Notes under the pieces: model-generated | Told to the model about the DNA's origin: nothing | Database searches by the model: none | What the model saw: only the letters and a program-made list of their open reading frames with translations | Origin: Pseudomonadota bacterium | Lineage (GTDB): Bacteria; Bdellovibrionota_B; Oligoflexia; Oligoflexales; CAIYRB01 | Direction: 5' to 3' | DNA length: 39,499 nt | NCBI GenBank assembly: GCA_026390435.1 | Contig: JAPLFY010000136.1 | Coordinates: 1 to 39,499, forward strand | Shown here: positions 35,050-39,219 of the stretch, one piece after another | Layout: each line of letters starts with the position of its first letter | How positions within the stretch are numbered: position 1 is the first letter of the stretch | Position numbers and translations under genes: made by a program

Positions 35050-37374
35050 ATGCTGCGCCTGGCTGACAAGGATCCAACTGATTTGAGCAAACGCGGTAAA
35101 AATTCCCAGGCTAAGAAGCGGCCACCACCACGCCGGCGCGAGACGCCGCAAGCAGATAGGCAGCCTAGATCTCGAGCTGACCAGGAGGGTGGTAACCCTG
35201 CGATAGCGAAGGCAGCAGCCCAAACTGCAGCTCAATTGAAAGACTGGCTGGCTGCCGGCACCAGTCAGCGTGCCGCGCCTAAATCCTCCGAAGTGCTCCT
35301 CGATCCATGGCAGGAGCAGGTGCTAGCGGCGCTCATGGCCGGAGAATCCGTCGTTGTCGATGCACCGACCACCGCCGGCAAGACCCGCGCGGTTGAGGTG
35401 TTCTTTCGTGCCAAGCTCAATGATCCCAGCTTTCGGGCTGCCTACACGACACCGGTAAAGAGTCTATCTAACGACAAACTGCGCGAATTCCGCGCCATGT
35501 TTGGCTCCGAAAATGTCGGCATTGCTACCGGTGACATCAAAGAGAATCTGCAAGCTCCAATTGTGGTTGCAACACTGGAGTCTTACCGCAACTCGTTACT
35601 TGGGGTAGAACCCGATCTTGGACGTACCTTAGTCGTCTTTGACGAGTATCATTACCTCCAGGATGAAAGTCGCGGCAGTAGCTGGGAAGAAGCCCTAATC
35701 CTGACTCCAGCAAGCTGCCAAGTTCTGCTTTTGTCAGCATCCGTCGCCAATGCCGAGCAATTCACCGAGTGGCTGCGTCAGATCCATCCCTCGCGCCCCT
35801 GTATCATGGTACGTACCGAGAAAAGGCCCGTGCCATTGGCAGATCTGATTTATTACGGCGGCGAGTGGCTACTGCCGCAGACCTTACCGGCGGGAGCCAT
35901 GAAGCCCCTGCCTAAGGGCCGCCCGGAAGCACCGGTACGTCAGGAAGACATCGCAACTCGCGCCGAAGGCCTGATCAACCTAGGGTTGACGCCAGCTATT
36001 GTATATTGCGGTCGCAGGCTAGCCTGCGAAACGATGGCCAACTTGATGTGTCGCCATCTCCCTCCGTTACCCGCAGCCGAAGCGGAGCGCATCGGCACCT
36101 CGCTCGCGGCGTCCCAAGACGAATTTCGCGGCCTGTCCTTTATTCATCCGAAATTACGTCAAATGCTGCAAGTATACGGTGTCGGCTATCACCACTCTGG
36201 ACTGGCAGCGCCAGCGCGGATGGCGGTAGAGGCACTAGTCAAAGACGGCCTCCTTCGCTTTTGCTCCTCCACGATGGGACTGAGCCTCGGGATTAACTTC
36301 TCGGTGCGTTCGGCGCTTATTAGCGATTATCAGCGTCCAGGCGAGCTCGGCTTCACCGATTATGCGCCGTCGGAAGTGTTACAGATGTTAGGCCGTGCCG
36401 GTCGCCGCGGTAAGGATGTGGTCGGCTTCAGCCTCTGGCCATCGCCTCAGGCCTATCAGCGCCTTGGAAATGCAAAACGCGACAATGTCGAATCGCGACT
36501 GCGCAGCGATCCGACGACCTTTCTTGGTTTGGTCGGAAGGGGTTTCAGCCTCAGTGCCATTGAGACCTTCTATAGTAAGAGTTTTCGGCGTTTCACCGAT
36601 CAGGGCATTGACCTTAGCCTGATCACCAAGCCGCGCCTCAGTAAAAAACTGGGCTCTCAGGACCTACCCTGTGACTCGCCAGCAGCAGCTATCGCGCAGT
36701 TTTGGAATAAGCAGAATTCACCGTGCACGACATGCCGCCACATAAACGTCTGTCATCCGGTCTTGAAGGCCAAGAAAGCGGGCACTCTTGCGGCACTGCA
36801 CGTGCATCTACACAAAATTGGCGCCCTGAATCCGGATGAATCTTTGAGCGAATTCGGTGCGATCGCCCGCTACTTTCCGCAGTCGGGTGGACTAGTCATG
36901 GCTCGCCTGATCGCTGATGGGCAAATTAATTCGGATAATTTAAACCGAGCGGTTGAGCTTGCGGCGTCCTTGACCCTGGCTCGTTTTAAGGAGCCTGGCA
37001 CCGACTCGCGTTACCGCCTGCCATTTGGCGAATACGGCGTCGAGGATATGCTCCTCAGCATGTATCCGTATGATTTATTCCCTGAAATTTATGATCCACC
37101 ATTTCGCCAACGCACCTATCCAGTCATCCGCGAATATAATCCGGCAGCCGGCTATATTATTCGTGAGTGGATTCAGGGCATGCCGTGGACGGATCTCATC
37201 ACCAATACGACCCATGAGCAGTACGGAACGGGGGATGTCATGTCCCTGATCCTGCGCAGCGCCACTTATCTACAGTCGGTGGTGCAGGCCGGGATCCCGG
37301 AACTCACTGATATGGCTCGTAATTTAAGGTCCATCATGCTGCGCGAGCCATTGTCTTTTGTGCTTGCCATTTAA
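35050..37374 (+). CDS. Ski2/Mtr4-like DEAD/H-box helicase
   Basis: A 774-residue helicase. After a basic, likely disordered N-terminus (1-80), the motor has APTTAGKT (105-112), TTPVKSLSNDK (Ia), DEYH (198-201), SAS (229-231) and QMLGRAGRRGKD (motif VI). Motif II DEYH and the layout fit the Ski2-like group, which unwinds RNA or DNA. A C-terminal helical part follows, with PCTTCRHINVCHP (C-x2-C-x5-C, about 557), too few cysteines for a full zinc site unless others help. ATG start without a clear ribosome site, so the true start may differ. Substrate unknown. Confidence 0.82.
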   Translation: MLRLADKDPTDLSKRGKNSQAKKRPPPRRRETPQADRQPRSRADQEGGNPAIAKAAAQTAAQLKDWLAAGTSQRAAPKSSEVLLDPWQEQVLAALMAGESVVVDAPTTAGKTRAVEVFFRAKLNDPSFRAAYTTPVKSLSNDKLREFRAMFGSENVGIATGDIKENLQAPIVVATLESYRNSLLGVEPDLGRTLVVFDEYHYLQDESRGSSWEEALILTPASCQVLLLSASVANAEQFTEWLRQIHPSRPCIMVRTEKRPVPLADLIYYGGEWLLPQTLPAGAMKPLPKGRPEAPVRQEDIATRAEGLINLGLTPAIVYCGRRLACETMANLMCRHLPPLPAAEAERIGTSLAASQDEFRGLSFIHPKLRQMLQVYGVGYHHSGLAAPARMAVEALVKDGLLRFCSSTMGLSLGINFSVRSALISDYQRPGELGFTDYAPSEVLQMLGRAGRRGKDVVGFSLWPSPQAYQRLGNAKRDNVESRLRSDPTTFLGLVGRGFSLSAIETFYSKSFRRFTDQGIDLSLITKPRLSKKLGSQDLPCDSPAAAIAQFWNKQNSPCTTCRHINVCHPVLKAKKAGTLAALHVHLHKIGALNPDESLSEFGAIARYFPQSGGLVMARLIADGQINSDNLNRAVELAASLTLARFKEPGTDSRYRLPFGEYGVEDMLLSMYPYDLFPEIYDPPFRQRTYPVIREYNPAAGYIIREWIQGMPWTDLITNTTHEQYGTGDVMSLILRSATYLQSVVQAGIPELTDMARNLRSIMLREPLSFVLAI

Positions 37375-37387
37375 CCTGCATTAAATA

Positions 37388-37416
37388 TTGACAACATAGG
37401 TCCGGGATTGTATTAC
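37388..37416 (+). promoter_or_regulatory. Strong sigma70-type promoter (TTGACA-N17-TATTAC)
   Basis: A perfect TTGACA (37388-37393) and TATTAC (37411-37416) with the ideal 17-base spacer, 13 bases after the helicase stop. The start site would be near 37423. It would drive the gene-free stretch downstream and perhaps the glutathione-peroxidase-like gene. Confidence 0.65.
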
Positions 37417-37427
37417 CCATCCCGGAC
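37400..37427. promoter_or_regulatory. 9-bp inverted repeat around the -10 box, candidate operator
   Basis: GTCCGGGAT (37400-37408) and ATCCCGGAC (37419-37427) are perfect reverse complements with a 10-base spacer that includes most of the -10 box. A repressor bound here would block the promoter. As RNA it would be a 9-bp hairpin, so a terminator for the helicase gene is the other reading, but no T-run follows. Confidence 0.55.
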
Positions 37428-37973
37428 AATCGTTTCCCCAATGTAGGAATCGAGTGTCGCAGATTCCCCTAGAATCTACGGTCACTTAGCCACACAGTCG
37501 CGACTCACCTCAAGACTTATCGGGATCAATGCATTTTTGGCACTCGGATTGCAGTAACGATTGTACGGCGCTAAACGGAATCTCCGCTTAGCAAAGTCTC
37601 AGAGAGTGCCTGTTAGTGTCTCATTAGTGTAAATCGAAAAGCTCTGCCGCTGCATTTAGTGTCCTCCTTTCCCGTTTCTGTTAGTACCTCACGTACCGTC
37701 TAATCCTTAGTTTATCCTTTCAAAATCGTTTCACCTTAGGTGGTCAGAGCTTAGGGGTCCCCACAAGGGACCCCTTCTACGTTTCCGCGTTTTGAAACGA
37801 AGACGGGCGCAGGGAAGCGCAGACTGCAGACGTTGCCATCCCACCAGATACAAGTACTGCAAAGACATTTGACGCTCGTCGAAGAAGTAGTCTCTACCCA
37901 ACAAACGAAATGCCTCCTAGAGTCAAAAAGCCAGGCGTGGCAAATTAGATTGGAATCATGGAGGAGACAAATC
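37428..37973 (+). other. Gene-free stretch with hairpins: candidate structured RNA or long leader
   Basis: About 550 bases with no convincing gene on either strand, downstream of the strong promoter. It holds several perfect or near-perfect stems: AGATTC/GAATCT (37461-37477), the palindrome AGTCGCGACT (37496-37505), GCTAA.CGG/CCG.TTAGC (37570-37592), AGGGGTCCC/GGGACCCCT (37753-37775) and CGTTTC/GAAACG (37780-37799). TTAGTGT-type motifs recur at 37613, 37624, 37656 and, as TTAGTACC, at 37681. I checked for conserved marks of tmRNA, RNase P RNA and SRP RNA and saw none. Confidence 0.4.
37753..37775 (+). terminator. Strong 9-bp hairpin, possible terminator or attenuator
   Basis: AGGGGTCCC-cacaa-GGGACCCCT is a perfect G+C-rich stem about 350 bases after the promoter and about 200 before the peroxidase gene. 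The following sequence (TCTACGTTT) is only partly T-rich. It would end a short RNA or attenuate transcription into the gene. Confidence 0.45.
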
Positions 37974-38462
37974 ATGACGGCATCTTTTTACGATTTTTCA
38001 GCGGTATCGATTGATGGCGAAAACATCTCAATGTCTGCTTTCAAGGGCAAAGTTATCTTAGTGGTGAATGTTGCGAGCAAGTGCGGCTTCACCCCTCAAT
38101 ATAAAGGCCTAGAAGAGCTGTATCAGAGTTACTGCGACCGCGGTTTAATTGTCCTCGGCTTTCCCTGCAATCAGTTTGGTGGTCAAGAGCCAGGCACATC
38201 TGAAGACATCAAGCAATTCTGCAGCCTAACCTACCCTGTCAGCTTTCCTATGTTCTCCAAGGTTGAGGTTAATGGACCGAGTGCACACCCGCTGTTTAAT
38301 TTCCTTAAGCAAGAGCAAACAGGTGTACTCGGAACAGAAGGCATTAAGTGGAACTTCACCAAGTTTCTCGTTGGCCGCGATGGCAAAGTCGCCGAGCGTT
38401 TTGCCCCGCAAACAGCTCCTGCAAGTTTGACTAAAAACGTTGAGGAGCTACTTAATCGGTAG
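37974..38462 (+). CDS. Glutathione peroxidase family protein (Cys type)
   Basis: A 162-residue thiol peroxidase that reduces hydrogen and organic peroxides. The start is ATG 37974 with GGAGGAG eight bases upstream; a longer frame from 37833 has no support. Peroxidatic Cys37 lies in [12 protein letters not shown], Gln71 in CNQFGGQEP and Trp126-Asn127 in KWNFTKF, the usual catalytic set with Cys instead of selenocysteine. Cys83 (KQFC) sits where the resolving cysteine of thioredoxin-dependent members lies, so thioredoxin is the likely reductant. A terminator follows. Confidence 0.92.
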
Positions 38463-38573: not shown

Positions 38574-38658
<85 letters not shown>

Positions 38659-38754
38659 CAAAGTGATTTTGCTAATTCTGCAGATGTCCATCGATGTCGT
38701 TAGCTTTTGCTTCCTCACCACTACATCCTGTAGCGTTCTTAGACTAGCGATAGC

Positions 38755-38779
38755 AGAGTACCCCAATATGGGGTACTCT
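38755..38779. promoter_or_regulatory. 10-bp dyad, likely operator of the toxin-antitoxin unit
   Basis: AGAGTACCCC-aatat-GGGGTACTCT is a perfect dyad 18 bases before the toxin start. Its centre contains CAATAT, a possible -10 box. Antitoxins of the XRE type bind such dyads to repress their own operon, so this fits autoregulation by the gene at 38887. Confidence 0.65.
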
Positions 38780-38797: not shown

Positions 38798-38897
38798 TTG
38801 GCCATTAAACAGGTTCAAATCAGTAGTGACGCGAGGCGAGATCTTCGCAAAGTTCCCGTTTATCAGCATCGAAGAGGTTAACAAACATGACTACTAA
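38798..38897 (+). pseudogene. Decayed RelE/ParE-like toxin (internal deletion)
   Basis: From TTG 38798 (GGAG upstream) the frame reads MAIKQVQISSDARRDLRKVP, the usual start of RelE/ParE-like toxins that pair with this antitoxin type. It then reaches a stop within ten codons. In the +1 frame from 38859 the sequence reads FISIEEVNKHDY and a TAA at 38895-38897, which matches the end of such toxins. The roughly 50-60 residue core is missing, with its catalytic residues, and the halves are out of frame. The 11-base overlap of the toxin end with the antitoxin ATG is still there. No active toxin can be made. Confidence 0.75.
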
Positions 38898-39219
38898 ACG
38901 GTCGAGGAAGACAGTAAAAAGCGACGCTACCTTATTCTTAGAAAAGCTTGGCGGCGGTCCTTTGACCTTCGGGCGCTTGCTTTATTCCATCCGCATGGGA
39001 GATGAAATTAGTCAGGTGGATTTTGCGAAGAAACTAGGTATTTCAAAAGCTCATCTTTGCGACATCGAGAAGGACCGACGCGTTGTCAGTATTTCTCGCG
39101 CTTGGGCTTGGGGCAAGAAGCTTGGGTACCCACCTGAGCAATTCATCGAGCTGGCTTTGCAATCAGTGCTGGAGCGTGAAGGACTTCATTTTCAAGTAAA
39201 ACTCATTACGGCGGCATAA
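38887..39219 (+). CDS. XRE-family antitoxin / helix-turn-helix regulator
   Basis: A 110-residue DNA-binding protein. The helix-turn-helix (about 30-75) includes ISQVDFAKKLGISKAHLCDIEKDRR, followed by a C-terminal helical part (EQFIELALQSVLEREGL) seen in antitoxins that follow RelE/ParE-like toxins. The ATG overlaps the end of the decayed toxin; AGAGG lies nine bases upstream. It appears intact although its toxin is broken, so it may persist as a plain repressor acting on the dyad at 38755-38779 or on toxins elsewhere. Confidence 0.8.
   Translation: MTTKRSRKTVKSDATLFLEKLGGGPLTFGRLLYSIRMGDEISQVDFAKKLGISKAHLCDIEKDRRVVSISRAWAWGKKLGYPPEQFIELALQSVLEREGLHFQVKLITAA

Follow-up and report, generated by a model that had tools for sequence, protein, structure and literature searches.

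The sequence TTGACA-N17-TATTAC at positions 37388 to 37416 on the plus strand of the analyzed stretch of DNA (39,499 nucleotides, hereafter the window) is likely to be a promoter of the sigma70 type for a non-coding RNA that is stand-alone, single-copy and about 360 nt long, with conservation throughout the order (Oligoflexales). Most likely, this promoter switches on an order-wide RNA that has not been described previously, and the 9-bp inverted repeat that surrounds the -10 element is a local peculiarity of two closely related genomes. The conservation of the RNA core, of its closing helix (denoted P1), of the promoter and of the terminator, as well as the assignment to the plus strand, are supported by comparison among genomes; transcription itself, the exact ends of the RNA and its function are what we infer. 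The predicted RNA, about 363 nt in length, would extend from 37423 to 37785 on the plus strand, with the promoter delimiting its 5' end, a hairpin delimiting its 3' end and the conserved core located between them.

The promoter-like sequence is flanked by a DEAD-box helicase gene upstream (35050-37374) and a glutathione peroxidase gene downstream (37974-38462). The -35 hexamer TTGACA (37388-37393) matches the consensus at all six positions, the -10 hexamer TATTAC (37411-37416) at four of the six, with C replacing the usual last T, and the spacer is 17 nt long. The initial annotation considered this site to be the strongest promoter in the window, to lie far from any start codon, and to have its -10 inside an inverted repeat, and all three statements hold: the site obtained the top score in a simple scan of the window, the glutathione peroxidase ATG at 37974 is located about 557 nt past the -10, and the -10 hexamer sits at the exact center of a perfect 9-bp repeat with a 10-nt loop (arms GTCCGGGAT, 37400-37408, and ATCCCGGAC, 37419-37427). 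A scan with a stricter -10 rule did not list the site. Altogether, the window contains four sites that combine TTGACA with a 4/6 match to the -10 at a distance of 16-18 nt (three in addition to the present one), compared to 0-5 sites with TTGACA and at least 4/6 (mean about 1.9) in 20 first-order shuffles, so that, as a bare sequence match, the promoter is not beyond chance. Perfect 9-bp inverted repeats with loops of 3-20 nt are found at three places in the window versus 0-7 (mean about 3) per shuffle; inside its own 45-nt segment, the repeat was equalled by none of 200 shuffles. Given that neither the promoter nor the repeat is unusual window-wide, the decision between the possible interpretations rests on comparison among genomes.

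A search of the intergenic DNA against 56 genomes, including the source genome itself, yielded matches in 12 genomes that clustered on 37637-37785 and not on the promoter. Eleven of these copies were aligned (the twelfth, from G005, is cut by a contig end and was left out) and converted into a covariance model of 117 positions (R1), and a second model (R2) was subsequently built from all 34 copies of the RNA. In the window, the 117-nt core recognized by these models (37637-37752, plus strand) starts 220 nt downstream of the -10. Of the 43 genomes examined for the order, 34 gave exactly one match each to R1 (E<=0.001); these represent several families and include 22 of the 27 genomes of good quality. 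A core match is absent in the remaining nine (G007, G010, G012, G014, G018, G019, G020, G026 and G039). R1 detected no homologs outside the order, and R2 added no further convincing genome; the searches covered 58 genomes, the same set for the class and for the phylum. A sister group, tentatively Silvanigrellales, has 27-31% GC in the three stretches sampled. R2 also gave weak matches with E values of 0.0042 in G057 and 0.094 in G044, as well as a partial match in G018 inside the order (10.5 bits); these were rejected, since all three lack a promoter and a terminator and look coding by eye. Two genomes, G016 and G008, have a weak second R2 match each (E about 0.04), and a search of plasmids produced no match.

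The promoter is conserved along with the core. In the 330 nt that precede the core, a sigma70-type pair of elements at the appropriate distance, TTGACA-N16-18-TA, is present in 26 of the 34 genomes, compared to 0.65 genomes on average and at most 3 of 34 in 300 rounds of shuffling; on the reverse strand, it is found in none of the 34, and elsewhere in the sequence of the same loci (620,880 nt, both strands) the same rule yields 14 matches. Among the 25 promoters that were aligned (G031, with a match just some 50 nt ahead of the core, was left out), all have an exact TTGACA and 23 have the 17-nt spacer. The -10 is weak: it starts with TA in all 25 and ends with T in only two of these and in none elsewhere. 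In G037, the -10 is poor. The eight genomes without a match to the rule all belong to a single family, f8. In one genus of this family (g9), TTGACC or TTGACG-N17-TA is located 43-47 nt before the core in six of the six genomes, and hence the RNA there would consist of little more than the core and the terminator; in G029 and G032, the core is present and a promoter was not recognized. Thus, the promoter at 37388-37416 is very likely genuine, and its product very likely a stand-alone RNA from the plus strand, about 360 nt in length. The initial annotation anticipated a tightly controlled RNA or a long leader, and the part of this expectation that concerns an RNA started far from a start codon is borne out by the conservation of the -35, the spacing and the TA ahead of a conserved RNA. 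As a separate observation, G001 and G003 contain an inverted repeat, TGGCCA-TT-TGGCCA, some 20 nt upstream of the -35 of the RNA promoter, which is absent in the window, and similar repeats upstream of this promoter are TGACCATTTGGCCA in G006 and TGGCCGTTTGGCA in G022; these repeats are a possible candidate for an activator site.

The core is closed by a helix, P1, that is formed by AGCTCTGCCGC (37640-37650) and GTGGTCAGAGCT (37740-37751, with C37745 bulged), both on the plus strand. In the alignment of all 34 copies (A3), 92% of the 351 cells of P1 are paired, and double-sided changes occur in 51 cells, involving 9 of the 11 pairs, compared to 14.9 +/- 4.7 in shuffled alignments (51 was reached in 0 of 500) and 1-10 in controls with the helix slid along the alignment, the count leaning towards P1 given that this helix was used in fitting A3. 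No double-sided changes are seen when only the first 11 copies are considered, but across families the compensatory changes are visible by eye. In the eight pairs that were examined in detail, 19 cells are G-U or U-G versus 5 that are A-C or C-A. This excess, together with the orientation of the promoter and the terminator, places the RNA on the plus strand. According to alignments A1-A3, the P1 loop (37651-37739, plus strand) is mostly unpaired and pyrimidine-rich, with conservation of sequence rather than of structure, the conserved blocks being TGCA, CCTTTCCCGTTT, CACGTAC.GTCTAATCC and TTCACCTTAG. A hairpin, CACC-UUA-GGUG, was considered and rejected: in other families, GGUGG covaries with the 5' strand of P1 and not with CACC. 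Folding of the complete RNA from the window gave an unremarkable result (z = -1.57, with 8 of 100 shuffles doing as well). A small protein was rejected as well: each reading frame is free of stops in at most 8 of the 34 copies, and the 33 complete copies of the core range in length from 106 to 133 nt, so the core is not coding. Also rejected was a sponge for CsrA with GGA motifs encoded on the minus strand, given that the promoter, the terminator and the G-U pairs all indicate the plus strand. Complementarity to 16S rRNA or to Shine-Dalgarno sequences, judged by eye, was not found in every copy.

On the 3' side, the core is followed by a terminator-like hairpin, AGGGGTCCCCACAAGGGACCCCT (37753-37785, plus strand), with a 9-bp stem (37753-37775) and a weak T tail. 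A GC-rich hairpin is located 3' of the core in nearly all copies, the exceptions being G031, G034 and G037, which have no clean hairpin directly 3' of the core; among the 33 homologs with sequence in this region, 27 have at least four T in the 8 nt past the best stem (a raw count, without a shuffle control). The helicase gene lies directly upstream of the core in 15 of the 34 genomes and a gene for an outer-membrane-like protein directly downstream, on the same strand, in 16, and in 10 neither arrangement is found. The recurrence of the latter gene would fit a cis-acting leader or riboswitch of the next gene. However, elsewhere the next gene differs, as in the window itself with its glutathione peroxidase; in G029 and G032, the outer-membrane-like gene is on the other side of the core and on the other strand; the terminator hairpin intervenes between the core and the gene; and no Rfam riboswitch matched in the window or in the homologous loci that were searched. 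We therefore consider a leader or riboswitch to be highly improbable, and the long leader envisaged in the initial annotation can be set aside. Given that the neighboring genes vary among genomes, the RNA appears to be a gene of its own, and the combination of its own promoter and terminator, the lack of a conserved frame and a position that is independent of the neighbors is that of a stand-alone small RNA.

The 5' part of the RNA contains a second promoter-like element, TGGCAC-N5-TTGCA (37538-37553, plus strand), which matches the -24/-12 consensus of sigma54 promoters at 11 of 11 positions and predicts an internal start near 37564. A loose version of the pattern, with one mismatch allowed, has a single match in the window versus a mean of 3.9 in shuffles; the pattern alone is thus not beyond chance, and the argument rests on conservation. 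In all seven genomes of the family to which the window belongs (f1), the element scores 10-11 of 11 and is located 98-99 nt before the core; none of the 27 genomes outside this family has an element with a score of at least 8. In the alignment of the family, the 5' half has otherwise diverged and the element stands out as its best-kept block. The sequence features expected of a sigma54 promoter, namely, GG and GC at -24 and -12 with consensus flanks, were found in 7 of 7 genomes of the family, and rpoN is present in the source genome (over the cut-off, on contig C31). In this family, the sigma54 element probably provides an additional start near 37564 that depends on an activator and would yield a shorter form of about 220 nt. 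If true, this family-specific element would clearly exemplify an RNA gene with changed control and an unchanged product.

The same data could be read differently, with the sigma54 element at 37538 as the true start in this family and the stretch that includes TTGACA and the repeat as an enhancer region, in which the repeat would bind an activator some 150 nt ahead of the start, a distance that is typical of enhancer sites. The -24/-12 element, perfect in the window and kept in all seven genomes, where no other block of the 5' half is as well conserved, and the presence of rpoN fit this scenario. However, TTGACA-N17-TA occupies the same place in all seven genomes and is also found in families without the sigma54 element, and the repeat is present in only two of the seven, so this alternative appears rather unlikely compared to a sigma70-type promoter with the sigma54 element as an addition.

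The 9-bp inverted repeat (37400-37427, with no strand assigned) has a much narrower distribution than the promoter that it surrounds. Comparison of the spacer among relatives shows that the promoter and the downstream RNA are kept and that 9-bp arms at the -10 are missing in 24 of the 26 homologous promoters, the two exceptions being the window and G002, with identical sequences; G002 is the nearest relative, with a helicase 97% identical to that of the window. In G011, an unrelated AT-rich 8-bp repeat is located at the -10. A second exact copy of the repeat was not found in the whole source genome, and a search of this genome with three mismatches allowed yielded three places, the same number as for a backwards control pattern, so the search for the repeat at other promoters that was suggested in the initial annotation revealed no regulon. 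The possibility that the repeat is a repressor operator placed over the -10 and subjecting the promoter to tight control draws on its exact centering on the -10, on the failure of 200 local shuffles to equal it and on its identity in G002. Nevertheless, this identity might reflect only close kinship, the sites in the source genome do not exceed the control, and such arms are missing in the great majority of the homologous promoters, which makes an operator of this kind decidedly unlikely; tight control of the RNA through the repeat is unsupported, given this near-absence of the arms from genomes with the promoter and the lack of a regulon.

The initial annotation also allowed that the repeat might act merely as the terminator of the helicase gene. 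Its GC-rich stem lies about 26 nt past the helicase stop codon, and a 106-nt stretch folds better than 200 of 200 shuffles (z = -3.36). However, the loop is 10 nt long, a proper T run is absent, the scan that used the stricter -10 rule did not list the repeat, and it is not kept in those relatives that retain the helicase upstream, so a helicase terminator is unlikely and this reading found no support. If transcription from the promoter starts near 37423, the second arm would be only partly transcribed and the first would be absent from the RNA; under this assumption, the hairpin of the repeat cannot form in the promoter's own RNA but only in read-through transcripts of the helicase gene. The 9-bp repeat is best viewed as a recent local feature, at most a lineage-specific operator or enhancer site.

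No match of the RNA to an Rfam family was found. At the gathering score, no Rfam 15 family matched the window; with E values up to 5, the only match in 37300-38000 was IMPDH on the minus strand (E = 4.8). A search of 18 of the 34 homologous loci at E<=1 revealed nothing credible at the RNA, a match to MicX (E = 0.44, 22.6 bits versus a cut-off of 75) being at chance level. Three known RNAs were considered and rejected, given that the source genome encodes its own copies elsewhere and none was found in the window: 6S RNA (RF00013; C58:9839-10017), RNase P RNA (RF00010; C14:160795-161206) and tmRNA (RF00023; C7:1921-2272), for which ARAGORN also found none in the window. The new RNA resembles 6S RNA in being stand-alone, structured and order-wide, in contrast to which 6S RNA occupies its separate locus on C58. 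In a separate observation, the 6S model matches twice in each of five genomes of family f6 (G011, G022, G030, G033 and G036), with one match of each pair scoring under the cut-off. Word searches of the open-access literature recognized no description of such an RNA, which is not a proof of absence. CsrB/RsmY-type RNAs are stand-alone and expose conserved single-stranded sequence, features that are shared by the RNA described here; unlike in these RNAs, the plus strand of the core in the window contains no GGA motif and the conserved loop is C/U-rich.

Two further RNAs offer partial parallels. The Pxr small RNA of Myxococcus is intergenic, with a predicted sigma54 promoter and long and short forms; it occurs, mostly as a single copy, in only a part of one bacterial order, and is about 108 nt long with three stem-loops and a fixed gene context (PMC5568312). 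Judged by these features, the new RNA is similar in its intergenic position, predicted sigma54 promoter, possible long and short forms, limitation to one order and single copy, and differs in its length of about 220-360 nt, in having one closing helix with a large open loop, and in the additional sigma70-type promoter; at the sequence level, the two were compared through Rfam only. The merRNA of Bdellovibrio is a stand-alone structured RNA of 445 nt that contains a c-di-GMP riboswitch (PMC3627812). The new RNA is likewise stand-alone and structured and of similar length, and the predatory host of merRNA may be distantly related to the source organism; unlike merRNA, the new RNA has no match to the c-di-GMP riboswitch.

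The comparative data suggest the following course of events. RNA polymerase would start near 37423 and proceed through the variable, structured 5' part into the conserved core, and transcription would end at the hairpin 37753-37775. In the resulting RNA, P1 (37640-37650 paired with 37740-37751) would present a mostly unpaired, C/U-rich loop of about 90 nt, and the exposed conserved loop could pair with mRNAs or bind a protein partner. In the family of the window, sigma54 and an activator may start the shorter form near 37564. A trans-acting regulatory RNA is our best guess for the function, with roughly even chances. More tentatively, and with the balance somewhat against it, the RNA might represent a new housekeeping-like class that is single-copy and order-wide, with one covarying helix, a long C/U-rich loop and, in one family, a sigma54 promoter added inside the 5' part. 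Order-wide single-copy RNAs are usually important, as exemplified by 6S RNA, tmRNA and RNase P RNA; the present RNA, with its conserved promoter, terminator and helix, was recognized here by none of the 4227 models of Rfam and provides a concrete gene for deletion or pull-down in an understudied, possibly predatory lineage.

Several other features of the window were noted. The segment 29799-34257 encodes a Ser/Thr protein kinase, PEGA-like in its C-terminal region, next to a PEGA-domain protein; this pair is followed by dephospho-CoA kinase and then by the helicase, and the coaE-helicase order is also found in other families. In the spacer 3' of the glutathione peroxidase gene, a tandem array of GGCAAC-type hexamers is apparent by eye at about 38576-38663. 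Further downstream, a near-perfect palindrome, AGAGTACCCCAATATGGGGTACTCT (38755-38779; 11-bp arms, 3-nt loop), precedes a helix-turn-helix gene (38887-39219) by about 110 nt and may be an operator or a terminator. The helix-turn-helix ORF, in the segment 38887-39490, shows a weak match, below the cut-off, to a HipB-like antitoxin model and is followed within a few nucleotides, near the contig end, by an 87-aa ORF, with which it could be a toxin-antitoxin pair.
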